Source: a virus. Taken from it: a DNA stretch of 41,956 nucleotides. The position numbers were made by a program, and so were the translations under genes. Position 1 is the stretch's first letter, and every line of letters begins with the position of its first letter. Of the stretch, positions 1 through 41,956 are shown piece by piece. The notes beneath the pieces were generated by a model, which worked only from the letters and a program-made list of their open reading frames with translations, made no database searches and was not told the DNA's origin. The DNA lies in the IMG/VR virus record IMGVR_UViG_3300024224_000008, positions 1 to 41,956 of that record; one strand, 5' to 3'.

Positions 1-721
1 TGGCGGTGTCGAGCACGTCCCACACGTCGCGCGTTGGATGCGCGTGGAGTTCATCGACGATCGCGCCGTAGACGTTCAGGCCGTCGAGCGTGTGCGCGTC
101 AGCGGACAGCGGCGCGAACTTGCTCGCGGTGGCCGGCACTTCCAAACTGCGCGTCGTTTTCGCGCCGAGCCGTACGCCGAAGTACTCACGGAACTCCGGC
201 GATCGCTTCACCATTTCCCACGCGGTCTCGGCGACGGCTTTGGCTTGCTCGCGCGTGGTGGCGGCGCTGTAGACCTCCGCGCCGCTCTCGCCGTCGGCCG
301 CCGTGAGGACGTTCGCGATCACGGCGCCGAGCGTGGATTTAGCGTTTTTGCGCGGCACCAGGACGAGGCCGACCTTGAATCGCCGCGCGCCGGTCAGCAC
401 GTGCAGCCAGCCGAACAGCGTCGTCAGCAGCCAGCATTGCCACGGCTCCAGGACGATCGTCGCCCAGCGATTGCGGCCTTCGCTGTCGCGGCCGACGACC
501 TTTGCCTTCGGTCCTTTGATATGCGGAAACTGCTCGGCCGCGCGGCAGATGCGCGTCGCGGCCGCGGCGTCAAACCGATACGGAAACTCGGGATCGGTGC
601 CGACGCGCGCCAGGTCGCGGACGTTCCGCTCGCACGCCAGGCGGACCCATTTACACGCGAGGATCTCGCCGGCGGCGACCGCCGCCTCATACGCCCGCGC
701 GATCCCGACGTAATCCTTCAC
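1..721 (-). CDS. terL: Terminase large subunit, N-terminal part (ATPase half)
   Basis: This is the 5' part of the packaging motor gene, which continues across the assembly join at 41820 to a stop at 40724. The 721 + 1,097 bases make 606 codons exactly, so the product has 605 residues. The ATPase half carries a Walker A (VPRKNAKST, residues about 122-130) and a Walker B (GAIVDELH, about 219-226 with D223/E224), the pattern of HK97/YmfN-type terminases. The start is GTG at 721, which overlaps the terS stop as GTGA. The protein docks on the portal, pumps DNA into the prohead and cuts concatemers with its C-terminal nuclease. The break inside the gene is purely an artefact of linearising a circular assembly. 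Confidence 0.95.
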   Translation of the reverse strand, partial: MKDYVGIARAYEAAVAAGEILACKWVRLACERNVRDLARVGTDPEFPYRFDAAAATRICRAAEQFPHIKGPKAKVVGRDSEGRNRWATIVLEPWQCWLLTTLFGWLHVLTGARRFKVGLVLVPRKNAKSTLGAVIANVLTAADGESGAEVYSAATTREQAKAVAETAWEMVKRSPEFREYFGVRLGAKTTRSLEVPATASKFAPLSADAHTLDGLNVYGAIVDELHAHPTRDVWDVLDTA

Positions 722-1233
722 GGCTGTTTGGCGACGGCCGCCCACGGATTCGCGGCGGCGGCTGCGGCGGCGGCCTGGCGCGCGGCGCCGTCGACCGGCT
801 TGCCGAACGCGGTCAGCTTGAAGCGTGCGAGCAGCCCGTCGAGCCGCTGCGCATACTTGGTGTAGAGCTTCAAGCCGTCAGCGATCACGCGCCGCTGCGG
901 CTCTTTGTGGTTGCGCTCCAGGTCGATCGAGTCCGCGATCGCGTGCGTCAGCGCCGCGACGGTGCACAGCTCGCGGAATCCGATCGCGGTGGCCGGCGTC
1001 AGCGTCTGCGCCTCGATCGCGAGCGGTGCGCACGTGCGCCACACGTCACGCTCCGCCGACGTGAGGTCGCTCGGCGGCAGCGCCAGGTCGTCGTCGGCCG
1101 CCGCGGCCGCGGCGGAGGCCTCCGCCGGCGGCGCCGGCGCCGGCGCGGGATCGCGGCGCGTGGTGACGAGCGACAGCACGCGCTTTTTGGTTGGCTTGCG
1201 GCCGGCGCCGACGCGAGGTCCGCCGCGTGGCAT
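718..1233 (-). CDS. terS: Terminase small subunit (P27-like)
   Basis: This 171-residue protein starts with MPRGGPRVGAGRKP, the glycine/arginine/lysine-rich opening typical of P27-family small terminases. A low-complexity Pro/Ala linker (about 35-55) follows, then a helical domain. In that family the protein recognises the packaging site and hands DNA to TerL. The ATG at 1233 is chosen over longer open sequence because the family opening begins there and because it overlaps the preceding stop as TGATG. Its own stop overlaps the terL GTG. The Ala-rich C terminus probably contacts TerL, by inference only. Confidence 0.88.
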   Translation of the reverse strand: MPRGGPRVGAGRKPTKKRVLSLVTTRRDPAPAPAPPAEASAAAAAADDDLALPPSDLTSAERDVWRTCAPLAIEAQTLTPATAIGFRELCTVAALTHAIADSIDLERNHKEPQRRVIADGLKLYTKYAQRLDGLLARFKLTAFGKPVDGAARQAAAAAAAANPWAAVAKQP

Positions 1234-1325
1234 CAGACCAGCCCCGCCAGCGCGCGGCCGATCGCCGCGAGCAGCTCCAGGATCGCCGCCGTCGATTGGA
1301 TCGCCGCGGCGATCGCCGCGATCAT
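1233..1325 (-). CDS. Tiny hydrophobic peptide, 30 residues
   Basis: This reading frame, almost entirely Ala, Ile and Leu (starting MIAAIAAAIQ), fills the exact gap between the 72-residue protein upstream and terS. Its ATG overlaps the upstream stop as ATGA and its TGA overlaps the terS start as TGATG. Both ends therefore show the stop-start coupling used across this genome, and that is the main support for it. It could be a small membrane peptide, or simply a translational relay that carries ribosomes to terS. No family was recognised. Confidence 0.5.
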   Translation of the reverse strand: MIAAIAAAIQSTAAILELLAAIGRALAGLV

Positions 1326-1540
1326 CGGAGCGCCTCGGCGGCGACCTGGACGCGCGCCACGTCCGCGAGCAGCTCCAGGAAATACGCGGCGTCGGCTTCG
1401 CCGGCGGCCGCCGGATCATCGGGTTCGGTATCCGCGAACGCCGCCGGATCGGCCTGATACCGGCGCCGCCATTCCGCGAAGGCCTCCGCCACCAGGCGTC
1501 GCTCGGTGTCGCCGGCGATCAGCTGCAGTAGTGCGCGCAT
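1322..1540 (-). CDS. Small hypothetical protein upstream of terS
   Basis: This 72-residue acidic helical protein has no recognised family. The ATG at 1540 is chosen because GGAGG lies nine bases upstream, whereas a longer in-frame version would start in an AT-rich leader without a ribosome site. It is the first gene of the packaging operon after the 134-base gap behind the HNH gene. It overlaps the 30-codon frame by ATGA. Confidence 0.72.
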   Translation of the reverse strand: MRALLQLIAGDTERRLVAEAFAEWRRRYQADPAAFADTEPDDPAAAGEADAAYFLELLADVARVQVAAEALR

Positions 1541-1674
1541 GTTTGAAAACCTCCAGGAATCTTTGAAAAAAAGTTTTTGTGTAAACGACCGGGCCCGGTC
1601 TCCGCCAGGTTTGGCCCTAAACAAAGATCAAGGCCATACCCCCCCCACACGACGGTCGCGTGCTGCGTTCGCAT
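1541..1674 (-). promoter_or_regulatory. Leader of the terminase operon with a perfect palindrome
   Basis: This 134-base gap is one of the few untranslated stretches in the packaging region. It holds a perfect 14-base palindrome (GACCGGGCCCGGTC, 1587-1600), an A/T-rich tract with a run of seven T on the minus strand, and the GGAGG of the next gene. It may combine a terminator for the HNH gene with the leader of the terminase genes. It is also a reasonable place to look for the packaging (cos/pac) site, because it lies between HNH and terS. No clear -35/-10 pair was seen. Confidence 0.4.
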
Positions 1675-2094
1675 CTACAGTGCTCGCGCGCGCCGCTCGC
1701 GATTGGTCTTGCGTGAGTGACACGACACACAGAGGAATCCCACGCGCAGCGGATCGCACACGCTGCGACGATCGCTGCGCTCGTGTTCCTGCAGTGGTGG
1801 ATCGTGATCAAGGTGAAGGCGACGATCCGTGATGCGGCCTTCTGCTTTGCAAATGCTCTCGCGCATCGCTGGCCCGCCTGGCAGCGCAGCGCCGCAGACC
1901 GGCGCAACACCAGCGCGGATCAGCTGTCGCACGAACAGCGCGCGGAATGTTTTTGACCAGTACGACGTATAACCACGCGCCGAGGCGGTGCGCCGACCGT
2001 GCGTTGGCGCGCAGCTGCTGCACAGCGTGCCCGCTGGTGTGAGGTTCGGACAGCCGGCCGATCCGCGACATGGCGACAGCGGTGCGCTCGGCAT
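1675..2094 (-). CDS. HNH endonuclease of the packaging module
   Basis: This 139-residue protein has the typical phage HNH layout. An N-terminal Cys/zinc segment (CRGSAGCPN, then CSSC) is followed by ARGYTSYWSKTFR and then the nuclease core LHLDHDPP...LCVSCHSRKTN. The DH pair and the CHSRKT ending are the metal-binding and catalytic signatures. HNH proteins next to terminase genes assist cos cleavage in HK97-like phages, so placement and family point to DNA-end processing during packaging. The ATG at 2094 overlaps the previous stop as ATGA. Confidence 0.86.
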   Translation of the reverse strand: MPSAPLSPCRGSAGCPNLTPAGTLCSSCAPTHGRRTASARGYTSYWSKTFRALFVRQLIRAGVAPVCGAALPGGPAMRESICKAEGRITDRRLHLDHDPPLQEHERSDRRSVCDPLRVGFLCVSCHSRKTNRERRARAL

Positions 2095-2315
2095 CAGTGC
2101 CGCTCCGTCGCCGCAAGTAGATCGCTGAGCGACAGCGACAACAGCTCCGCGCGCAGCTCGCCCTCGATGATCTCTAGCTGCGCGTCCTCGACGAGCGGTG
2201 CCAGCTCCGCGCGGATCGCGGCGGCGTACTCGAGCGGGATTCCTTCGGGAAATCGGCGGTTCAGCCGCTCCAGGAACACGCGGATCGCCGTGAGCCGATC
2301 GAGCGCGGTCATCAT
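2094..2315 (-). CDS. Small helical hypothetical protein
   Basis: This 73-residue, Leu- and Glu-rich protein is probably all alpha-helical. Its start overlaps the methyltransferase stop (ATGA) and its stop overlaps the HNH start (ATGA), so it is translated as part of a methyltransferase-to-HNH string. No family was recognised. The start has two consecutive ATG codons, and 2315 is chosen for the overlap. Confidence 0.72.
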   Translation of the reverse strand: MMTALDRLTAIRVFLERLNRRFPEGIPLEYAAAIRAELAPLVEDAQLEIIEGELRAELLSLSLSDLLAATERH

Positions 2316-2956
2316 GCGGCGCGCCGTTCCTCACGCCGCGCGGCTTCGATGCGGCGCGCAGCGATCTCGCAGTACCGTTCCTCGCGTTCGATCAGCACCG
2401 CCTCGCGCCCCAGCTCCAGCGCGGCGAGGCCGGTCGTGCCGCTGCCGGCGTAGGGATCGAGGATCGTGCGGACGTCGCCGGCTTGCTCGATGCACCAGCG
2501 CATCAGCGCGACGGGTTTCTGTGTCGGGTGAAACTTGCCGCGGTGGTAGTCGCGGCGCGCGAGCGGATCGCGCATGAACACACGCGCGTTCGCATCCCAC
2601 GAGCACCAGGCCAGCTCGCACTCGGCAAACGTGCGGCCCTTGAAGCCGGCGCCCTTATCCCACACGAAGAAATTGCGCGTCGGCGGCAGCGAAAAATAGT
2701 TCATGCCGAACACGACGGCGCGCTCCGCGTGGTCGACGAGCATCTGCAGGATCCACGGCGCCGGCGCGGCGTCATCCCAGCGCAGATCGCTGCGGCGGAA
2801 TTTCTGCTCGCCGTATTTGCCGGTGCCGCCGCTGCGGCCGGCGCCGTACGGCGGATCGGTCAGCAGCAGATCGACGCGCGGCAGCGCCGGCACGATTTGC
2901 CGACAGTCACCGAGGTAGAGCGTGACGCCGCCGCGTTTGTAGTACGGCCGCTGCAT
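2312..2956 (-). CDS. DNA methyltransferase (N6-adenine/N4-cytosine type)
   Basis: This 214-residue protein has the catalytic DPPY motif early (TDPPYG, about 33-38). The AdoMet-binding region comes late: HPTQKP at about 143-148, then ILDPYAGSGTTG at about 165-176. That order is characteristic of beta-class amino-methyltransferases. It would methylate adenine or cytosine to protect phage DNA from restriction or to mark it. No cognate restriction enzyme is adjacent, so it looks like an orphan enzyme. The target is unknown; the many GATC sites in the genome are one candidate. The start is fixed by ATGA overlap with the HTH gene upstream. Confidence 0.93.
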   Translation of the reverse strand: MQRPYYKRGGVTLYLGDCRQIVPALPRVDLLLTDPPYGAGRSGGTGKYGEQKFRRSDLRWDDAAPAPWILQMLVDHAERAVVFGMNYFSLPPTRNFFVWDKGAGFKGRTFAECELAWCSWDANARVFMRDPLARRDYHRGKFHPTQKPVALMRWCIEQAGDVRTILDPYAGSGTTGLAALELGREAVLIEREERYCEIAARRIEAARREERRAA

Positions 2957-3228
2957 CAGCGGCTCGCGCGCTCGACCGCGAGACCATCAGCCGGCGTCGG
3001 CAGCCGTTGCCAGCCGAGCGCCTGTAGGAACGCCACGAAGTGATCCAGGTGGATCCGGTACTGGCGGCGGCCGCGGACGATCGTGACCTCCGCGTCGAGC
3101 TGCACCAGGCGGTCGCCGCTGGTGATGCCGCGCACGATCGCGCGACGAATGAAGCTGGAGTCGAAGCCCATGAACGAGGCGCACGCGCCTACGGTCCACG
3201 GCGTCGAGGCAATTGCGGCTGGTGTCAC
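2956..3228 (-). CDS. Small HTH-type DNA-binding protein (copy B of a tandem pair)
   Basis: This 90-residue protein aligns over most of its length with the product of the gene just upstream. Both share a pattern of VGxxxxFMGxxxSxxRxAI, a central V-R-L/Q-L-D/K segment, and the ending RIHLDxFxAFLQAxGWxRxP. It reads like an excisionase/Xis-type winged helix that selects DNA. It starts with GTG at 3228, with only a weak ribosome site, and its stop overlaps the methyltransferase start as ATGA. It may control the methyltransferase/HNH string, by inference from position. Confidence 0.7.
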   Translation of the reverse strand: MTPAAIASTPWTVGACASFMGFDSSFIRRAIVRGITSGDRLVQLDAEVTIVRGRRQYRIHLDHFVAFLQALGWQRLPTPADGLAVERASR

Positions 3229-3332: not shown

Positions 3333-3386
3333 GCGCTCTGTGCGCTCTAGCCGCTCAGTACGCTCAAGCCGCTCCGCGCGCTCAAG
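3333..3386. repeat. Three tandem 18-bp repeats between the two HTH paralogs
   Basis: Three consecutive 18-base units (3333-3350, 3351-3368, 3369-3386) each contain two CGCTC-type half-units nine bases apart. On the minus strand this appears as recurring GAGCG boxes. The array lies in the gap between the paralogous HTH genes and just overlaps the stop of the upstream copy. It could be a binding array for one of those proteins. One minus-strand frame through it reads as a Leu-Glu-Arg-Thr-Glu-Arg periodicity, which is taken as a by-product of the repeat. Confidence 0.6.
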
Positions 3387-3732
3387 CCGCGGTGCTCTCG
3401 CGTGGATGCCGCGGGATCCGGCGCCAGCCGATCGCCTGTAGAAATGCAATGAAGTCGTCGAGATGGATCCGGTGTGTGCGGCGCCCGTTGAACGTGAGCG
3501 ATTCCGCTTTGAGGCGCACCAGGCCGCCCGGTACCCACACGCCCTCGTCGATCGCGCCACGAACCCAGGACGTCGACCGCCCCATGTAGTCGCCCACGTC
3601 GCGCGTTGTCAGCGGCGGATCGGTGGCACGTGAGCCGCCAGCGATCGGCCGCGATCGACCGCGGCGCCGGTCCACCAGTGCCGGCGCCGGCGCTGGCGCG
3701 CTGACGTCGGCATCATCCGAGCGACTACTCAT
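3382..3732 (-). CDS. HTH-type DNA-binding protein (copy A of a tandem pair)
   Basis: This 116-residue protein has a disordered Arg/Pro/Ala N-terminal region (about 1-40) and then an excisionase-like HTH. The HTH reads LTTRDVGDYMGRSTSWVRGAI and is followed by a basic wing ending RIHLDDFIAFLQAIGW. It is a clear paralog of the next gene downstream, with an added N-terminal tail. The ATG at 3732 is preferred because the longer in-frame start is TTG. It is transcribed divergently from the HTH-Ku cassette across a 104-base gap, so it is a candidate regulator of that cassette as well as of its own operon. Confidence 0.75.
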   Translation of the reverse strand: MSSRSDDADVSAPAPAPALVDRRRGRSRPIAGGSRATDPPLTTRDVGDYMGRSTSWVRGAIDEGVWVPGGLVRLKAESLTFNGRRTHRIHLDDFIAFLQAIGWRRIPRHPRESTAA

Positions 3733-3836
3733 GTGCCCGACCGTTTCTGCTCGCAAGGTTCACGCCTCTATTGTCCTTTTTCGGCTCAGCTCCGCGCGTG
3801 GTGCAGCACCGTGCCGATCTGCCCGATACCGGGTAC
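3733..3836. promoter_or_regulatory. Divergent promoter region between HTH copy A and the HTH-Ku cassette
   Basis: This 104-base gap separates the minus-strand HTH gene from the plus-strand cassette, so it must hold both promoters. It contains the only notable A/T-rich patch here (TTGTCCTTTTT at about 3771-3781). No convincing -10 box could be paired with it, so individual promoters are not called. Confidence 0.5.
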
Positions 3837-4037
3837 ATGTCCGATGAACAGCTCGTCTCGATCACCAAAGCCGCACAGCTCGTCGGTGTCAGCCGCCGTA
3901 CGATCTACAACTGGATGTCGGCCGGGAAACTCCAGATCCGGCGGACCGCCGGCGGCCGCGTGCGCATCACCGCGTCGTCGCTCTGGCGTCCAGCCAGCTC
4001 GCCGGCGTCAGCTGCTGCCGAAAATCCGGCAGCGTGA
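3837..4037 (+). CDS. Small excisionase/MerR-like HTH protein heading the Ku cassette
   Basis: This 66-residue protein is essentially one HTH domain: SITKAAQLVGVSRRTIYNWMSAGKL followed by a basic wing (QIRRTAGGRVRIT). That is the standard helix-turn-helix-17/excisionase pattern. It is the first gene of a three-gene plus-strand cassette in an otherwise minus-strand region, 14 bases ahead of Ku. The ATG at 3837 is chosen because the domain starts directly after it and the longer in-frame extension looks non-coding. It is probably an autoregulator of the cassette or an excisionase-like architectural factor; excision is less likely because no integrase was found. Confidence 0.8.
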   Translation: MSDEQLVSITKAAQLVGVSRRTIYNWMSAGKLQIRRTAGGRVRITASSLWRPASSPASAAAENPAA

Positions 4038-4051
4038 AAGGACCTCGATCC

Positions 4052-4870
4052 ATGCGTGCCACCTGGCGCGGTCACCTGAAAATTAGCCTCGTCAACATTC
4101 CGATCTTGGTGTTCCCGGCGACCGACGCCGCGGCGGCGCTGTCCTTCAATCAGCTGCACGACGCATGTCAGACGCGCGTGCAGCAGCGGCGCTGGTGTCC
4201 GCAGTGCGCGCGCGAGGTCCCGAATAGCGAGATCGTCAAAGGCTTTGAGTTTGCCAAAGGTCAGTACGTCGTGCTGCGCGACGAGGACCTGGACGCCGTA
4301 CGGCCGGAATCCACGCGCGTGATCGACCTGGTGCAATTCGCGCCGGCGCGCCAGCTGGATCCGATGTACATCGATCGCACCTACTACCTCGCGCCAGACA
4401 AAGGCGGCGCCGACGCGTTCGTGGTGATGCGCGAGGCAATGGCGGACCGGATCGGGATCGGCAAGCTGGCGATCTACGGCCGCGAGTACTTGATCGCCGT
4501 GCGGCCGCTGGAGCGCGCGCTCGTGCTCCACACGCTGCACCACGCCGCGGAGCTGCGCGCCCTGGAGGACGTCGTCGACCTCACGGCGATCGCCGGCCAG
4601 GCGCCGGCGGCCGACGTCAAGCTGGCGCGCCAGGTGGTCGCCACGTTCACCGCGCCGCTGCGCCTGGACACGTTCACCGACGCGTATGTGGCCGGCTTGC
4701 GCCAGGTGATCGATCGGCGGATCGCTGGTGAGGACACCGCGGGCGCGCCGGCGGCGCCGGCGCCGCGGGCGACGGCCGACCTCAAGGCCGCGCTGCTGGA
4801 GAGTCTGGCGGCGGTGCGTGGCCAGGCGGCGGCCGCGGCGCCCCGCAAGCGTCGAGGAAAGGCCGCGTAA
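4052..4870 (+). CDS. ku: Ku protein (non-homologous end-joining DNA-end-binding protein)
   Basis: This 272-residue protein matches bacterial Ku from end to end. It opens MRATWRGHLKISLVNIPI and continues with FNQLHDAC, a CPQC pair (49-52) followed by VKGFEFAKGQYVVL, and DPMYIDRTYYLAP. The core ends with the helical LHHAAELR segment. The basic C-terminal tail (PRKRRGK) resembles tails that aid DNA threading. The length equals that of cellular Ku, and no truncation is visible. Ku homodimers ring double-stranded ends and recruit LigD. No ligase is encoded here, so a host LigD would be required. The ATG at 4052 is favoured over GTG 4034 because AAAGGA lies nine bases before it and the family opening starts there. 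Mycobacteriophages Omega and Corndog are known Ku carriers. Confidence 0.95.
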   Translation: MRATWRGHLKISLVNIPILVFPATDAAAALSFNQLHDACQTRVQQRRWCPQCAREVPNSEIVKGFEFAKGQYVVLRDEDLDAVRPESTRVIDLVQFAPARQLDPMYIDRTYYLAPDKGGADAFVVMREAMADRIGIGKLAIYGREYLIAVRPLERALVLHTLHHAAELRALEDVVDLTAIAGQAPAADVKLARQVVATFTAPLRLDTFTDAYVAGLRQVIDRRIAGEDTAGAPAAPAPRATADLKAALLESLAAVRGQAAAAAPRKRRGKAA

Positions 4871-4879
4871 AATGCGCGC

Positions 4880-5107
4880 ATGGATCGACGTGATGCGCTC
4901 AAGGTCCTCGCCGCGCTGCCGGCCGCGACGCGGATTGGCCGCGCGGAGCCGGCGCCGCGTGACGTGATCGTCGTGGAGCTGCCAGGCGAGCCGGAGGTCA
5001 GCGACGTCCAGCGGTATCGGGTGGCGCTGCAGCAAGTCTGGCCGCAGCATCGGATCGTGATGCTCGCCGGCGGCGTCCGTCTGTCGTTCGCCGCCGGCGG
5101 CCGGTGA
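4880..5107 (+). CDS. Small protein with a Tat-like leader, downstream of Ku
   Basis: This 75-residue protein begins MDRRDALKVLAALPAATRIG. The twin arginine followed by a hydrophobic stretch resembles a Tat export signal, although the hydrophobic core is short. The mature part (about 50 residues) is beta-rich with no recognised family. It follows Ku by nine bases and is probably co-transcribed. It ends one base from the convergent 51-residue gene. An alternative is a cytoplasmic protein with a coincidental RR motif. Confidence 0.6.
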   Translation: MDRRDALKVLAALPAATRIGRAEPAPRDVIVVELPGEPEVSDVQRYRVALQQVWPQHRIVMLAGGVRLSFAAGGR

Positions 5108-5108
5108 G

Positions 5109-5264
5109 TTAGCGGCTCGGGCGTTTGCGCGGTCGGCCGCCGAGCTTGCCGTTGCGGCGCGCGGCCGCGGCTTTGGCGGCGCTGGTGCGCGAGCCGGCGC
5201 GGCGCGCCCATTCACGCGCCAGGGCGTTGTCGTCGATCGTTGCGGCCTTCCGTGGTTTCTGCAT
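5109..5264 (-). CDS. Small basic protein ending in a GGRPRK tail
   Basis: This 51-residue, strongly basic protein ends AAARRNGKLGGRPRKRPSR. The same kind of basic tail (NGKxGGRPRK) recurs in many short bacterial proteins of unknown function and suggests nucleic-acid binding. The ATG at 5264 overlaps the upstream stop as ATGA. It closes the long minus-strand string that begins at 7690 and converges with the Ku cassette. Confidence 0.75.
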   Translation of the reverse strand: MQKPRKAATIDDNALAREWARRAGSRTSAAKAAAARRNGKLGGRPRKRPSR

Positions 5265-5473
5265 CAGTCTGCCTCCGCGGGCGCCGGCCAGTACCGGAAT
5301 GTCGCCGTGCGCGCCGGCCGCGCCGCGGCGTCCTCGTTCAGCTGCCGCGCGCGCTCGCGCGCCTCCGCCTCTGTGAAGTGCAGCACCTGGCCGCCGTCGC
5401 CGCCGCGCAGCGGTCCGACGCGGTGCCCGGTGACGCCGCCGCTAACCTCACACATCACGATCCACGTGTTCAC
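5264..5473 (-). CDS. Small hypothetical protein
   Basis: This 69-residue protein (starting MNTWIVMCEVSGGVTGHR) has an early beta region and a middle helix rich in Glu, Ala and Arg. It starts with GTG at 5473, overlapping the lipoprotein stop as GTGA, and ends in ATGA overlap with the 51-residue gene. No family was recognised. Coupling to the lipoprotein suggests related expression, not necessarily related function. Confidence 0.72.
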   Translation of the reverse strand: MNTWIVMCEVSGGVTGHRVGPLRGGDGGQVLHFTEAEARERARQLNEDAAARPARTATFRYWPAPAEAD

Positions 5474-6141
5474 GGCTGCACCACGAGCGCCTCGCGCGCG
5501 CTGATCGTGTGACCGTTGGCCAGCGTGGCGTCGACCTGCACCGTGAACAGTCCCGCGTGCGCGAACGTGTGATCGAGCGTGCGCTGTGTGGATTGGACGA
5601 CGACGTCGTTCAGCGCGGCGCCCTCATCGAGAAACGTATACGCGATCCCGCGCGTGGCCACGTCATCAGCGGAGAACGTCACCGCCACGCGGTACGCCAG
5701 CGGCGGCCCGAGGCGCCGCACGGAGAGGCCGAGCACCGGATCGGCGACCGGCGGCGCCGGCGGCACGAGCAGCGGCTGCACGGCGACCGTGGTTTCCGCG
5801 TGCACGGTGTCGGTGCGCGCGGCGATCGCGGCCACGCCGGCCGGCGCCTCGCTGAGCGTGACGCGCGCCACGCCGGCGACGTCGGTGGCCACGACCGCGG
5901 CCGACAGCGTGCCGGCGGAGGCCTGGAACGTGACGGCCGCGCCAGGCACCGCGGCCGCGTAGGCGTCGATCACGCGCGCCTGGATCGCCACCGTGCCGCC
6001 GGCGGCGCCGAGGCCTGGTGCCGCGGACAGCTCCAGGCGCGCCGGCACGCCTGGCGCCGGCTGTGACGACGGCGCCGTTGGCGGCGCCGCCACCGAGCAC
6101 GCGGCGGTCAGCGCCGCGACGAACAGGATGATCAGTTTCAT
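5470..6141 (-). CDS. Lipoprotein with a bacterial Ig-like (Big_1-like) domain
   Basis: The 223-residue product begins MKLIILFVAALTAACS, a lipoprotein signal with an LTAAC lipobox, so the mature protein would be anchored through Cys15. A Pro-rich linker leads to a domain (about residues 32-125) with the Big_1/invasin pattern: VAIQARVIDAYAAAVPGAAVTF, a GTLSAAV turn, and TDVAGVARVTL. A second beta domain ends with a PKD-like FAHAGLFTVQVDA strand. A surface lipoprotein expressed from a phage outside the lysis cassette suggests lysogenic conversion or superinfection exclusion, by inference. The ATG at 6141 has GGGGGAG upstream and overlaps the previous stop. Confidence 0.82.
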   Translation of the reverse strand: MKLIILFVAALTAACSVAAPPTAPSSQPAPGVPARLELSAAPGLGAAGGTVAIQARVIDAYAAAVPGAAVTFQASAGTLSAAVVATDVAGVARVTLSEAPAGVAAIAARTDTVHAETTVAVQPLLVPPAPPVADPVLGLSVRRLGPPLAYRVAVTFSADDVATRGIAYTFLDEGAALNDVVVQSTQRTLDHTFAHAGLFTVQVDATLANGHTISAREALVVQP

Positions 6142-6566
6142 TTGCTCCCCCTCACGATCCGATACCCGGCACGGTGCGCTGCACACGCGAACTGACGCGC
6201 GCAGACCAGCCGGCAAAACAAACCGTCGTACGAATCCCAGCGGATAAACTGCCGCCGCACGACCGCCGGCCGCGTCCAATCGATCAGCCCTTTGCGGCGT
6301 TCGTGCGTGGTTATCGGCCGCAGCTTGCGATCGCAAAACGCGCAGCGCGGCCGCTCGGCCGGCAGTCCGTCGATCGGCGGCAGCTGCCGGTACGGATCCA
6401 CGATCCGGCGCAGCTCCGCGAGCGGCAGATTCACCGTGGCGCGGTCGTCCGCCTCTCCGTCGATGCCGACGTCGGCGGTGCCGTTCTCATACACGTACCG
6501 CACGCGGCCGATTGCGCCGTCGGCGGTGCGAACCCAATGGTCGGTCGCGATCGTGCGCGCGCTCAC
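6138..6566 (-). CDS. Hypothetical protein with a Cys pair motif
   Basis: This 142-residue protein has an N-terminal beta-rich half (VRTADGAIGRVRYVYENG, like a small SH3-type barrel). A CAFCDRKLRPITTHERRKG segment and later cysteines (LFCRLVCARQFACAAH) could together bind zinc. The function is unknown. The start is GTG 6566 (GTGA overlap with the zinc-ribbon gene upstream), and the stop overlaps the lipoprotein start as ATGA. Confidence 0.75.
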   Translation of the reverse strand: MSARTIATDHWVRTADGAIGRVRYVYENGTADVGIDGEADDRATVNLPLAELRRIVDPYRQLPPIDGLPAERPRCAFCDRKLRPITTHERRKGLIDWTRPAVVRRQFIRWDSYDGLFCRLVCARQFACAAHRAGYRIVRGSK

Positions 6567-10034: not shown

Positions 10035-10333
10035 CGCGGCACGACGCCGCGCAGCCGGCCGCGGGCGACCAGGTCCTCACACCGTGCGCGGTCCACTTCC
10101 GGCGCGGTCACCAGGCCATACAGCCGAGCGTCGTCCACCAGCAGCCAGAAGGCGGCCGCGTCGACCGCCTCCTGCCATTCCGCCAGCGTCTCGGGATCGC
10201 GCTGGCGGCCGGCTGCCGGCGCCCTGGCGGCCCGCCTGGCGCGCGCGGCGGCGCTGGCGGCCTGGCGGCTCCCCTGGCCCGCTGGCCCCGCCTGGCGGCC
10301 CGCGGAGGCGCCCCGGCGGCCCGCTCGCCTCAT
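10025..10333 (-). CDS. Hypothetical protein downstream of the HerA-like ATPase
   Basis: The first 45 residues of this 102-residue protein are a low-complexity Arg/Ala/Gly tail. The folded part (DPETLAEWQEAVDAAAFWLLVDDARLYGLV...) is helical with no recognised family. It is translationally coupled to the ATPase gene (ATGA), so it may be its small partner. The Ala/Gly-rich start region has unusual composition (strings of gcggcc-type triplets). Confidence 0.7.
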   Translation of the reverse strand: MRRAGRRGASAGRQAGPAGQGSRQAASAAARARRAARAPAAGRQRDPETLAEWQEAVDAAAFWLLVDDARLYGLVTAPEVDRARCEDLVARGRLRGVVPRTS

Positions 10334-11955
10334 GGCTCCTCGACGCGCACTTTGGCGCCTGGTGCCAGCCGGTACGTGCTCCCCTCCAGCGTCAGAAACC
10401 GCTCGGCGACCAGCTCGCGGAGCACGCGCCACAGCGAGCCGTCGTTGACATCGCGGCCGGTCCGCTTGAGTTCCTTGCGGACCGCGCCGGCCGCGGCGCC
10501 CTCATCGAAAAAGCCGTCGGCGATCAGCCGCGCGACGCGGCCTTTCAGCTGCGTGCCGTCGATCGTGATCGTGGTGCGCTCCACCGTGACGACCAGCTCG
10601 GGCCGCGTCTCACGGAGCCGCAGCAGCGCGCCGGCCAGCTCCGCGTCGGCCAGCAGCCGCGTTTTGACGCCTTCGTAGATCGCGTCGTCGACCGTGGCCT
10701 CAGCGGTCACCAGCTTGCGCGGCGCCGGCGGATCGTTCGTCGGCCCGCGGTGCGCGTTCGCGATCAGCAGCTGGCGCCGGAGGTCCTCGTTTTCGGTTTT
10801 GAGTGCCGCGATCTGCCGCTGCAGATCCGCGGCTTCGGCCTTCGTCACGTTCGGCTCCCCTTTCCGCGGTGGCGCCAGCGCGCGCGCCAGGTCCTCGGAG
10901 ATGCGCGGCCCGAGCACCTGGCGCGCCGCGCGCGTCACGTTGCCGGCGGTCGCGATCGCGTTTGCATTGCGCAGATCGATCGCGCCGGTGGCGACCTTGC
11001 GCGCGAGGTCCTTCGTCATCCAGGCCGGCTGCACGTAGGTTCGGATCGCGTTGCGCGACCAGCACGCCAGGAATTGCCCCAGCTCCAGCGTCGCCACGTC
11101 CGCCGCGGTTGGTTTGGCCACGCTTGCCGGAATGTTGGCGAGCGTGCGTTTGATCTCGTTGGCCTCCCGCTGCACGCCGACCAGGAACACCGGGCACGCG
11201 CGGATCGCCAGCTTCCACACGCCGGCGAGATCTTGTGAATCGATCCAGACGAAATTACGGAGCGCGGCGCCTTTGCGCACCAACGTTTCAAAGGCGAGCC
11301 GCACTGGCGAGCCGCGCTGCTCCGGCAGAAATTCCCAGGCTTCCGGTATGACGGTGACCACGTCGGTCTCGTGCGTGTACACGTGCTCCAGCACGGAGCG
11401 GATCACCAGGCCTTGCAGCTCCACGCGGTACGCGGTCAGATCGATCACGTTCAAGCCGTCACCGAGCGTGAAGTGCCGCGACGGTGGCAGCTCGCGCAGC
11501 TGCGGGACGACCAGATCGAGATACCCCTCGATCTCGGTGTAGATGCTCTCGGAAAAGCCGCGCGACGAACCTTTGGCGGCGATCACATTGCGCTGCACGT
11601 CCGCGAGCGTCTCCGCGCCGCGGCACACTTTCATCAGAAACGATCGCAGTAGCTTGTTTTTTTCGCCCATCGTGGCGTCGATCAGCGACGCCACAAATTG
11701 CCAATCGGCGCGCTCGCGGAAGTACGGCGCGATCATGTGGCCAGTGCGGAACGATTGCTCGCCGCGTTTGGTGATGAACGACACCGATCGCAATCCCGAT
11801 CGCACGATCAGCGCCTCCAGCGCCGTCGTTTTGCCGGCCTGTTGCGTCTGCCCTGTCACGCACAGATGGCCGATCGGGATCGCGACCGGCTCGCCGCTGC
11901 CGACCGCGTAGCCGAGATGCACCGGCGCCAGCGCCGCGCGGAATTTATGCGTCAT
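10330..11955 (-). CDS. HerA/FtsK-superfamily DNA-translocase-like ATPase
   Basis: This 541-residue protein has a Walker A (GQTQQAGKTT, about 35-44), a Walker B-like VVTVIPEAWEF (about 199-209) and a downstream sensor-type VWIDSQDLAGV. A coiled coil (about 370-400) and a C-terminal winged helix (about 465-530) follow. The layout fits HerA/VirB4/TraD-like motors. The acidic residue before EAW is replaced by Pro, so the Walker B Glu must serve. It sits between the replication gene and the partition operon, which suggests a role in segregation, DNA transfer or replication-linked translocation, not in packaging, since terL is separate. The ATG at 11955 is chosen for the GAGGAA ribosome site. Confidence 0.8.
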   Translation of the reverse strand: MTHKFRAALAPVHLGYAVGSGEPVAIPIGHLCVTGQTQQAGKTTALEALIVRSGLRSVSFITKRGEQSFRTGHMIAPYFRERADWQFVASLIDATMGEKNKLLRSFLMKVCRGAETLADVQRNVIAAKGSSRGFSESIYTEIEGYLDLVVPQLRELPPSRHFTLGDGLNVIDLTAYRVELQGLVIRSVLEHVYTHETDVVTVIPEAWEFLPEQRGSPVRLAFETLVRKGAALRNFVWIDSQDLAGVWKLAIRACPVFLVGVQREANEIKRTLANIPASVAKPTAADVATLELGQFLACWSRNAIRTYVQPAWMTKDLARKVATGAIDLRNANAIATAGNVTRAARQVLGPRISEDLARALAPPRKGEPNVTKAEAADLQRQIAALKTENEDLRRQLLIANAHRGPTNDPPAPRKLVTAEATVDDAIYEGVKTRLLADAELAGALLRLRETRPELVVTVERTTITIDGTQLKGRVARLIADGFFDEGAAAGAVRKELKRTGRDVNDGSLWRVLRELVAERFLTLEGSTYRLAPGAKVRVEEP

Positions 11956-12175
11956 CGTGTGGCCATTCCTCACGGAGCGCGGCGAGCCGCGGCAGCGGTG
12001 GCAGGCTGTCGGCCGGCGGCGTTGGTTCGTCCGCGCACGCGCTGCAGCGGAATTTCTGCCAGCGCGTGCGGCTGTTGCCGATGTAGACGAGCACCGGCCG
12101 GCCCGGCACGATCTCGGTCGTGCAGCGGCCGCAGATCGCGCGGCCGTCGGCCGGCACCAGGAACCACGCTTTCAC
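11945..12175 (-). CDS. Small zinc-ribbon protein
   Basis: This 76-residue protein has a CGRC pair (about 15-18) and a CSAC pair (about 44-47) spaced as in a zinc ribbon, followed by a Pro-rich tail. It starts with GTG at 12175 in GTGA overlap with the tiny gene upstream and runs 11 bases into the ATPase gene. It may recruit the ATPase to DNA, by inference from position. Confidence 0.75.
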   Translation of the reverse strand: MKAWFLVPADGRAICGRCTTEIVPGRPVLVYIGNSRTRWQKFRCSACADEPTPPADSLPPLPRLAALREEWPHDDA

Positions 12176-15976: not shown

Positions 15977-15996
15977 CTTGTGAAGGCTTATGAAGT
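15977..15996. repeat. Operator/centromere-like site 2 in the regulator's divergent promoter
   Basis: This is an exact copy of the 20-mer CTTGTGAAGGCTTATGAAGT found at 8166-8185. Its two CTT-N3-AAG boxes are at 15977-15985 and 15987-15995. It lies between the divergent XRE gene and the plus-strand Tat-leader gene. This could mean co-control by the partition RHH protein, or an additional centromere. Confidence 0.65.
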
Positions 15997-16010
15997 TAGG
16001 ATCGCCGCCG

Positions 16011-16403
16011 ATGCACCGACGCGGCTTTTTCGCCCTCATCGGCGGCGCCCTGGCGCGGCCGGTCGTCTCCCCCGCCGGCGCCGCGCCGCCGCCGCCGCGG
16101 CCCGGGCCGCTGACGCGGATCGATCTCGATTGCGTGGCGTTCGGGACCTTGCAGATCACCGAGCAGCCGCTCGACGAGGCCGGCGCCCTCTGGCAGCACG
16201 CGACCTTTGTGCAGCTGGCGGACACCGCGCCGCCGCTCGGCGCCTGGATCCAGATCGACTGCTGGTGTGGCTGCAGCGACGTCGGCGGTCACGCGCCGCT
16301 CTTCGTCGGCCAGGTGGTGCGCCGCCGCGCGATCCGCCACGTGCGCTCGTTCGGCGGCCTGGCCTGGCGCGTGGAGGCGGAGACGCCGAGGCGGCGGTGC
16401 TGA
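16011..16403 (+). CDS. Exported protein with a Tat-like signal
   Basis: This 130-residue protein begins MHRRGFFALIGGALARP, a twin-arginine signal followed by a hydrophobic core and an Ala-X-Ala-type end (PAGAA, about 22-26). A Pro stretch and a beta-rich domain follow, with WCGC and closely spaced cysteines (about residue 90-94). The ATG at 16011 has AGGA nine bases upstream; an earlier ATG at 15990 lies inside the operator-like repeat. It is the only plus-strand gene outside the Ku cassette and is transcribed away from the regulator, so lysogenic expression (a moron) is plausible. Confidence 0.72.
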   Translation: MHRRGFFALIGGALARPVVSPAGAAPPPPRPGPLTRIDLDCVAFGTLQITEQPLDEAGALWQHATFVQLADTAPPLGAWIQIDCWCGCSDVGGHAPLFVGQVVRRRAIRHVRSFGGLAWRVEAETPRRRC

Positions 16404-40421: not shown

Positions 40422-40727
40422 TTAGGATTCCTCGATCTGCTCTAGCGTCTGTGTGCCCGACGTGGATTGCAGGTAGAAGGCGACGTCGCCGGCGGCGTAG
40501 CGGCGGCCCGAGCCGCTGTTGTGTGCGTCGTAGCCGGGCCGCGGCGCAAATGGCAGCCGCTCGCGCGGGATCTCTTCGCCGGCGAGAAACGTCTGTTGAT
40601 GGCCGCCGAGGCTGGTGACCATCAGCACGGACACCGGCAGCTTACGGATCCACAGGTAGTCGCAATTGCGCGTCGCCGTTACCGGCGTCCAGGACGTCGA
40701 GTCGATCGTGATCGTGGTAACTGTCAC
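40422..40727 (-). CDS. Small hypothetical protein downstream of terL
   Basis: The 101-residue product begins with beta-rich MTVTTITIDSTSWTPV and continues with CDYLWIRKLPVSVLMVTSLGGHQQTFLAGEEIPRERLPF. It may be a small beta-sandwich head protein. GTG 40727 overlaps the terL stop as GTGA, and its own stop (TAA) lies two bases before the next start. Confidence 0.72.
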   Translation of the reverse strand: MTVTTITIDSTSWTPVTATRNCDYLWIRKLPVSVLMVTSLGGHQQTFLAGEEIPRERLPFAPRPGYDAHNSGSGRRYAAGDVAFYLQSTSGTQTLEQIEES

Positions 40728-41946
40728 GGCGTCGCCTGCCCTTCTGTCGGCGCCGGCGTCACCGGCACGAACCCGTTCGGCGTCCAGCGGCTCACGCGGC
40801 CGCGGCGCCGCGGCGGCCCGACCACGACCTGCGAGGCGCGGCTGATCGCGGTCAGCGTGGCGACCGGGCCGTCGATCTTGTTTGGTGAGTCTTTGCCGCC
40901 GGCCTTGCGCGGATAAATTTCGTCTTTGTAGTTGCGCTCGACGACGACGTTGCTCCACATCCAGTTAAAAGCCGGGTTCGCTTCGTGCCGGATGTTGGCG
41001 CCGAGCGTCAGACTCTCCACCAGCTGCATAGCCGGGTTCATCGTCTCGACGTTCTGCGGCACCGTGATCACGAACTGATCGACGCCGTCTTTGCCCATGC
41101 GCGGCTGCAGCCGCGTTTTGAGGTTCGGCGCCATGCGTGACGCGAGCGCGCGATCGAAGTCGATCTCGCGAACGTCCTCCAGGACGTCGCACCAATTGAC
41201 GATCTCGTCCTCGATCAGCTGGTAATCCGCCTGGTCGCCGTCGGTCGCGATAATGTGGCCGCGCTCCGCCCAGCCGGCCATCTGCGCGATCGGCGATCGC
41301 TCGATCGTTTTCTCCGGTAGAAAAAACTTGCCAAACACGACGTATTGCTTCGCGGTCGGCCGGAACAGCGCCACGATCGCCGCGAAGTCGCGGACCTCCG
41401 CGAGGTCGACACCGATCCAGCACGGAAACCCGACGAAGTCCTCGATCCGCAGCGTGCTGTCGCCACAGCGGATCCATTCCGCCATCGGCATCCAGGTCGA
41501 TTCGGCGCGGACCCACACGTTGCAGTGCTTGGTGAGGAAGTTGTTTGTCGCGGCCGGTGAGTGTGAGGCCTCGCGCGCCTTGCGCTTGAGATCGTCGGGC
41601 CGCACGCTGACGCCGTAATTCGGGTTGGCCTTGCGCCAGGCGGCCTCGGTGCGCCAGTCATCGCCCTCGTCGATCGTGTACTCCACGCCGAAAAACTCGT
41701 CGTCGTCGAGCGCGCGTTCAAGGATCTTGTGCAGGTAGGTCAGCTTTTCGTAACAGATCCCGCCGATGTCGACGCCTGCCGTGGTGATCGCTAGGATCAG
41801 CGATTGATCGCGCGCGCCGGTGGCGGTGTCGAGCACGTCCCACACGTCGCGCGTTGGATGCGCGTGGAGTTCATCGACGATCGCGCCGTAGACGTTCAGG
41901 CCGTCGAGCGTGTGCGCGTCAGCGGACAGCGGCGCGAACTTGCTCG
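40724..41946 (-). CDS. terL: Terminase large subunit, C-terminal part (nuclease half)
   Basis: This is the C-terminal continuation of the terminase at 1-721. The nuclease domain shows GVDLAEVRDFAAIVALF (first metal-binding Asp), then VERNYKDEIYP and KIDGPVATLTAISRA (last catalytic Asp), the RNase H-like order of phage terminases. The upstream end here runs into the repeat 41821-41946, which duplicates positions 1-126, so bases beyond 41820 are redundant. The stop overlaps the next gene as GTGA. Confidence 0.95.
41821..41946. repeat. Terminal direct repeat marking a closed assembly
   Basis: These 126 bases are identical to positions 1-126 and lie at the opposite end of the window. The shared sequence falls inside the terminase gene, so it is an assembly overlap and not a biological end repeat. 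Confidence 0.95.
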
Positions 41947-41956
41947 ACGGCCTGAA
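41943..41956. other. Inverted chimeric tail of the contig
   Basis: The final 14 bases (CTCGACGGCCTGAA) are the reverse complement of bases 75-88 and of 41895-41908. The first four, CTCG, are shared with the true sequence, so the join is a 4-base microhomology fold-back. Such inverted joins are typical of amplification or library chimeras. Confidence 0.85.

Follow-up and report, generated by a model that had tools for sequence, protein, structure and literature searches.

What use does a phage have for Ku? The window, by which we mean the whole stretch of 41,956 nucleotides that was analysed (IMG/VR virus record IMGVR_UViG_3300024224_000008), carries a gene for Ku close to its packaging genes and on the opposite strand. 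In the original prediction, Ku was the middle member of a cassette of three genes, flanked by an HTH gene and by a gene for a protein with a Tat leader. The genes at this locus are:

3382-3756, minus strand: small DNA-binding-like gene, divergent and opposite the cassette; paralogue of the gene at 2956-3228, with relatives that adjoin Ku in the viral records L011, L025 and L026.
3837-4037, plus strand: HTH_17/MerR/excisionase-like DNA-binding protein, 66 aa (Pfam HTH_17, E=2.3e-10, above cut-off).
4052-4870, plus strand: Ku, 272 aa, with a beta-barrel/bridge core, a predicted C-terminal helix (residues 244-262) and a basic tail (Pfam, PHROG 4873, AlphaFold2, Foldseek).
4880-5107, plus strand: small ORF, 75 aa, with a Tat-like leader and a short domain (Pfam TAT_signal, below cut-off).

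The Ku gene starts at an ATG with an AAAGGA ribosome site, giving 272 aa (an alternative GTG at 4034 would give 278 aa), and its product is the full-length protein that had been proposed: it exceeds the gathering score of Pfam PF02735 (E=1.7e-41; 142.7 bits, cut-off 25) and its residues 1-271 align with PHROG 4873 ('Ku-like DNA end binding', E=2e-43). The coding composition agrees for Ku and for the small ORF (GC3 of 0.87 and 0.85, respectively). The AlphaFold2 model of Ku, a monomer based on 40 sequences, has a mean pLDDT of 85.4; its best match among solved structures (Foldseek) is B. subtilis Ku on DNA (9vnq, E=6e-21), M. tuberculosis Ku (9i91, 9ig8) is matched as well, and most of the bacterial Ku matches are DNA-bound.

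Filament formation and synapsis of M. tuberculosis Ku require L13/V14, and a stabilising role in its dimer bridge has been proposed for His35 and the partner's Cys48/Cys51 (PMC12658125). The equivalents in the window Ku are the bridge ligands H36/C49/C52, invariant in an alignment of eight phage Ku, and the filament loop L13-V14. Fold, bridge ligands, filament loop and C-terminal helix are thus like those of B. subtilis and M. tuberculosis Ku (9vnq, 9i91, 8v53), whereas sequence identity is just 28-30%. A role in LigD recruitment has been proposed in the literature for the C-terminal helix of Ku, in which the positions A247, L248 and S251 are nearly invariant among 40 Ku. Pairwise dN/dS values for 13 phage Ku are 0.20-0.53 (Nei-Gojobori), to be read as a rough guide with synonymous divergence high for most pairs. 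Judged by sequence and model, the window encodes an intact single-domain Ku of the bacterial type, with dimerisation and end binding predicted; the modelled fold is that of bacterial Ku, and the dimer, bridge and filament residues are kept, with none lost.

Two viral-contig scans yielded, with the window included, 18 non-redundant records that carry this type of Ku. The HTH gene of the window, separated from Ku by the predicted 14 bases, is probably the regulator of the cassette, and a same-strand HTH gene is found just upstream of Ku in 12 of the 18 records. The small ORF fared differently: its TAT_signal score of 16.5 bits misses the curated cut-off of 22.7, and homologues occur in two other Ku cassettes only, once before Ku (L014) and once after it (L017), the L014 homologue having a sub-threshold portal-like match, too. 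The recurring unit is HTH-Ku, without the small ORF as a fixed part. In the comparison of gene neighbourhoods the HTH partner was upheld and the Tat partner was not, the conserved neighbours being packaging genes rather than genes of an unrelated function; the suggestion that the cassette does something undescribed through a Tat protein is dropped, as the Tat call is below threshold and the ORF is optional.

Small ORFs with an RR leader recur near Ku in varying arrangements (L014:9719-9985, L017:11096-11359), and further ones lie about 170 bases before Ku in L019, where the leader and a shortened copy of the HTH gene upstream are fused, and about 500 bases before Ku in L024. A small cold-shock-like gene directly follows Ku in two records (L012:8148-8381, L005:6251-6478). 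The genes at 2956-3228 and 3382-3756 of the window are tandem paralogues without a Pfam match. Nothing was found when the cassette was scanned for sigma-70 promoters and terminators.

Comparison of the window with itself showed that bases 1-129 recur at 41821-41950 (99.2% identity), i.e. an imperfect terminal overlap, and collapsing this overlap gives one 613-aa large terminase subunit (TerL) that spans the junction. The record, classed as linear in the database despite the overlap, is a circularly closed phage genome of about 41.8 kb; gene absences therefore carry meaning. The packaging region comprises:

40724-41956, minus strand: TerL, C-terminal part (613-aa reconstruction).
2-745, minus strand: TerL, N-terminal part, continuing across the closed junction (613-aa reconstruction).
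718-1419, minus strand: small terminase subunit, TerS (PHROG 83, E=4e-4).
1555-1584, minus strand: 30-mer with the highest AT content in the genome (23% GC, with A/T tracts), in the HNH-TerS gap; possible small-terminase site (composition scan).
1639-1646, minus strand: G8 run about 30 bases beyond the HNH stop and the sole run of at least 7 G in the genome; putative cos core (sequence scan).
1675-2097, minus strand: HNH endonuclease of the packaging type (PHROG 144, E=2.4e-10).

The genes for head (Caudoviricetes), tail, lysis, replication and packaging are all on the minus strand. The only credible plus-strand genes are the Ku cassette and one ORF at 15990-16403, so that the cassette does stand opposite the rest of its region, as first described; the remaining plus-strand ORFs with a positive coding score are largely antisense to minus-strand genes. 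The ORF at 15990-16403 is isolated, starts MKLGSPPMHRRGFFALIGG, has a Tat-like leader and gave no Pfam or PHROG match on scanning. The putative right-end arm also encodes an N6/N4 DNA methyltransferase (2312-2956), whose gene is located between the Ku cassette and HNH. A conserved P-loop protein of 547-597 aa (10330-11973 in the window) is common to the window and the Ku phages L010 and L015; it has no Pfam or PHROG match and is possibly a DNA-pumping ATPase.

Ku had also been linked to a partition system. ParA is encoded in the window (Pfam and PHROG scans), no ParB was identified there and no tyrosine integrase was matched; the first half of the system is confirmed, the second is not, and a general link of Ku with partition does not hold, with integrases found in five other Ku phages. 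The accompanying proposal was that ParA maintains the prophage outside the chromosome and that Ku mends its breaks, as might suit a genome with ParA and without a tyrosine integrase. We regard this as very improbable: integrase-bearing relatives keep Ku too, and what is constant is the association of Ku with the terminase, not with ParA.

HNH adjoins TerS and TerL in the window, as in HK97-type packaging; the order HNH, TerS, TerL is that of HK97 gp74-type modules, to which the window, unlike these, adds a divergent Ku cassette upstream of HNH. A G7 run is found within 150 bp of the HNH stop in 8 of 13 HNH loci of Ku phages (0.09 expected from run frequency). In HK97, the ends are 10-nt 3' overhangs, and the site bound by the small terminase is next to an A-tract, 15-29 bp away from the cut (PMC11331095). 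One contig of 43.9 kb (L016) has its first base 36 bp ahead of a ParB-like gene that precedes TerS/TerL and its other end 47 bp past HNH, as would be the case for a linear molecule cut between HNH and TerS. On these sequence features, a cos site probably lies between HNH and TerS, 2.4 kb from Ku. Similar G-run elements are present between HNH and TerS in relatives without Ku; a cos type peculiar to Ku phages was thus not seen, and because TerL-related phages with such elements do without Ku, the cos type alone does not demand it. We know of no need for Ku in HK97, though the packaging module of the window resembles that of HK97.

In each of the 18 records, Ku and the terminase genes are divergent. 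Ku starts upstream of TerL, usually with HNH in between, at a distance of 1.0-6.0 kb in 17 records and of 10.5 kb in L010, where sugar-biosynthesis-like genes (4112-6385) are located between the packaging genes and Ku. The association spans three terminase types: most records have an HK97-like enzyme, L018 has the lambda GpA type and a Nu1-like small subunit, and L015 has a protein that resembles Terminase_3 at a score below cut-off. This conserved position bears on a second explanation, that Ku is expressed from the prophage and boosts host break repair (desiccation, radiation), with the HTH protein as a lysogeny regulator. The divergent cassette of its own, on the opposite strand as is typical of morons, the integrases in five relatives, ParA in the window and the soil hosts are in favour of it, and so is mycobacterial work that examined how ku mutants survive desiccation and linked Ku to this survival (PMC12658125). 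A moron would, however, be expected at varied places, yet Ku adjoins packaging genes across three terminase types, and the hosts already own Ku and LigD; we consider a role of this kind quite unlikely. The terminase-side position could also be an inherited linkage rather than a matter of function. The idea that this terminase lineage carries Ku in general was rejected: none of 50 TerL-related records among the matches listed, many of them fragments, has Ku.

The nearest cellular Ku found in a genome scan are those of Acidobacteriota, largely Vicinamibacteria (subdivision 6), with up to 62% identity. Many of these are 'solo' genes located between thymidine kinase (tdk) and uvrC, and other copies adjoin LigD (L067, L069 and L070 gave no LigD match on re-check, which leaves the placement of the phage Ku unchanged; the neighbour in L067 is DUF3500). 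The 17 phage Ku in a tree of 67 sequences group in a single clade (bootstrap 91, SH-aLRT 92), nested inside a supported group with the solo Ku (98/87); several phage branches are long, and the branching order inside the phage clade is unsettled. Unlike the solo genes in their tdk-uvrC neighbourhood, the phage copies are in packaging-side cassettes and on longer branches. The trees are most simply read as a single capture of Ku from the solo genes of Vicinamibacteria and its later spread among phages. LigD-adjacent host Ku is not favoured as the source by the trees, and mycobacteriophage Ku was rejected as the source by a tree of 106 sequences, in which mycobacteriophage Ku, the viral Ku of L029 and L030, and Firmicutes-type viral Ku all fall elsewhere.

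Among the viral Ku outside this clade, those of L029, L030 and L034 have no related TerL nearby, and the gene after Ku in L034 resembles RusA. The viral contigs L031 and L032, apparently from Firmicutes, have a LigD-type ligase gene immediately after Ku; these are apparently phages or prophages with both halves of NHEJ. No cultured phage of the present Ku clade was found, the matches in phage records being mycobacteriophages and one unverified faecal scaffold.

The host of this soil phage is most likely a member of the Acidobacteriota, class Vicinamibacteria, because the phage Ku nest in the clade of solo Ku and because the closest TerL found (59% identity to that of the window) is on a 31.6 kb contig of a Vicinamibacteria genome. 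This contig has portal, protease and capsid genes syntenic with the window, and its genome is of the same class as a solo-Ku host; in addition, TerS of the window is 49% identical to a gene adjoining TerL in a Vicinamibacteria genome. No prophage with Ku was found in Vicinamibacteria genomes, and the 31.6 kb contig, the best candidate, is incomplete and without Ku.

The LigD polymerase domain is present in each of the 22 solo-Ku genomes of the Vicinamibacteria type that were tested (20 over the curated cut-off), so that plausible hosts do encode LigD. The phage ligase search covered the ATP-dependent type (PF01068), for which no match was found in 18 phage records including the window, 15 of these being of this Ku clade; the initial claim that the phage has no ligase is upheld for ATP-dependent ligases and limited to those.

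The main reading, to which we assign a probability of about 0.55, is that the phage uses a bacterial-type Ku on its own DNA ends and that host LigD closes the genome. End handling by Ku with host LigD, as put forward at the outset, is still the best explanation, because of the LigD in all 22 host-type genomes, the lack of an ATP-dependent ligase in all 18 phage records, and the conserved packaging-side position. The virion DNA would most likely be linear, with its ends at the probable cos between HNH and TerS. In a genome flipped to the usual orientation, TerS/TerL would form the left end, and the Ku cassette would lie about 2.4 kb from the right end. The cassette, controlled from a region that includes the HTH gene, would be transcribed inward and independently, presumably early. 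Ku homodimers would slide onto both ends of the entering DNA, shield them from host exonucleases and bridge them, and the C-terminal helix may then recruit host LigD for closure of the genome.

Part of this sequence of events might suffice. Ku could coat the incoming ends without joining them, like Gam of phage Mu, which protects linear DNA (PMC1378119); the cohesive ends would then anneal and be sealed by the host NAD ligase, and LigD would be unneeded. Ku alongside a cos of the HK97 type, and Ku being optional, would both be explained. Against such a shield, the C-terminal helix, i.e. the proposed LigD recruiter, is conserved as well as the core, and Ku was donated by hosts whose genomes all encode LigD; we think it unlikely. 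Ku may join the ends or mainly shield them, because relatives with the same kind of packaging site are without Ku (none of 50 records).

The reading with host LigD has precedents in the mycobacteriophages of clusters J (Omega) and O (Corndog), whose Ku exploits host LigD for circularisation; the phages described here encode Ku without a match to an NHEJ ligase (PF01068), and LigD is present in the inferred hosts. Two reports (PMC3706429, PMC4351075, citing Pitcher 2006) describe 4-nt 3' ends for the Omega group and Corndog, together with NHEJ as a contributor to circularisation. Optimus (cluster J type) has the layout proposed here, with HNH and terminase at the left end and Ku near the right end on the strand opposite to the structural genes. 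For cluster J Ku, an Lsr2-like C-terminus has been reported (PMC3706429). In contrast to these similarities, the window Ku is only about 28-30% identical to the Ku of clusters J and O and has a separate origin in the tree. Cluster J genomes are about 110 kb, unlike the approximately 42 kb of the window, and HK97-like, GpA or Terminase_3-like packaging and acidobacterial hosts set the present phages further apart.

The viral Ku listed in a 2025 survey come from mycobacteriophages and a single Streptomyces phage (PMC11936186). In a broad survey of 2020, no transfer of Ku between bacteria and phages was seen (PMC7719229). Searches of the open-access literature did not yield a separate acidobacterial clade of phage Ku whose position on the packaging side is conserved. 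The clade of the window Ku is a new, independent lineage of phage Ku; the mechanism is not new.

For this group of phages we tentatively suggest, as a possibility rather than an expectation, that HTH and Ku are a portable end-management cassette which moves among acidobacterial phages with unrelated terminases and is nearly always placed at the packaging-proximal end. Ku-dependent circularisation or end protection would then occur outside the actinobacteriophages, perhaps with the longer cohesive ends of the HK97 type too, and the explanation of phage Ku by 4-nt overhangs would be extended. The clade itself shows host-to-phage transfer of Ku in a different phylum, after which at least 18 diverse phages have retained Ku under constraint and at a telling position, and it makes the role of Ku for a virus testable by comparison, in related phages that have the same kind of packaging site with and without Ku.
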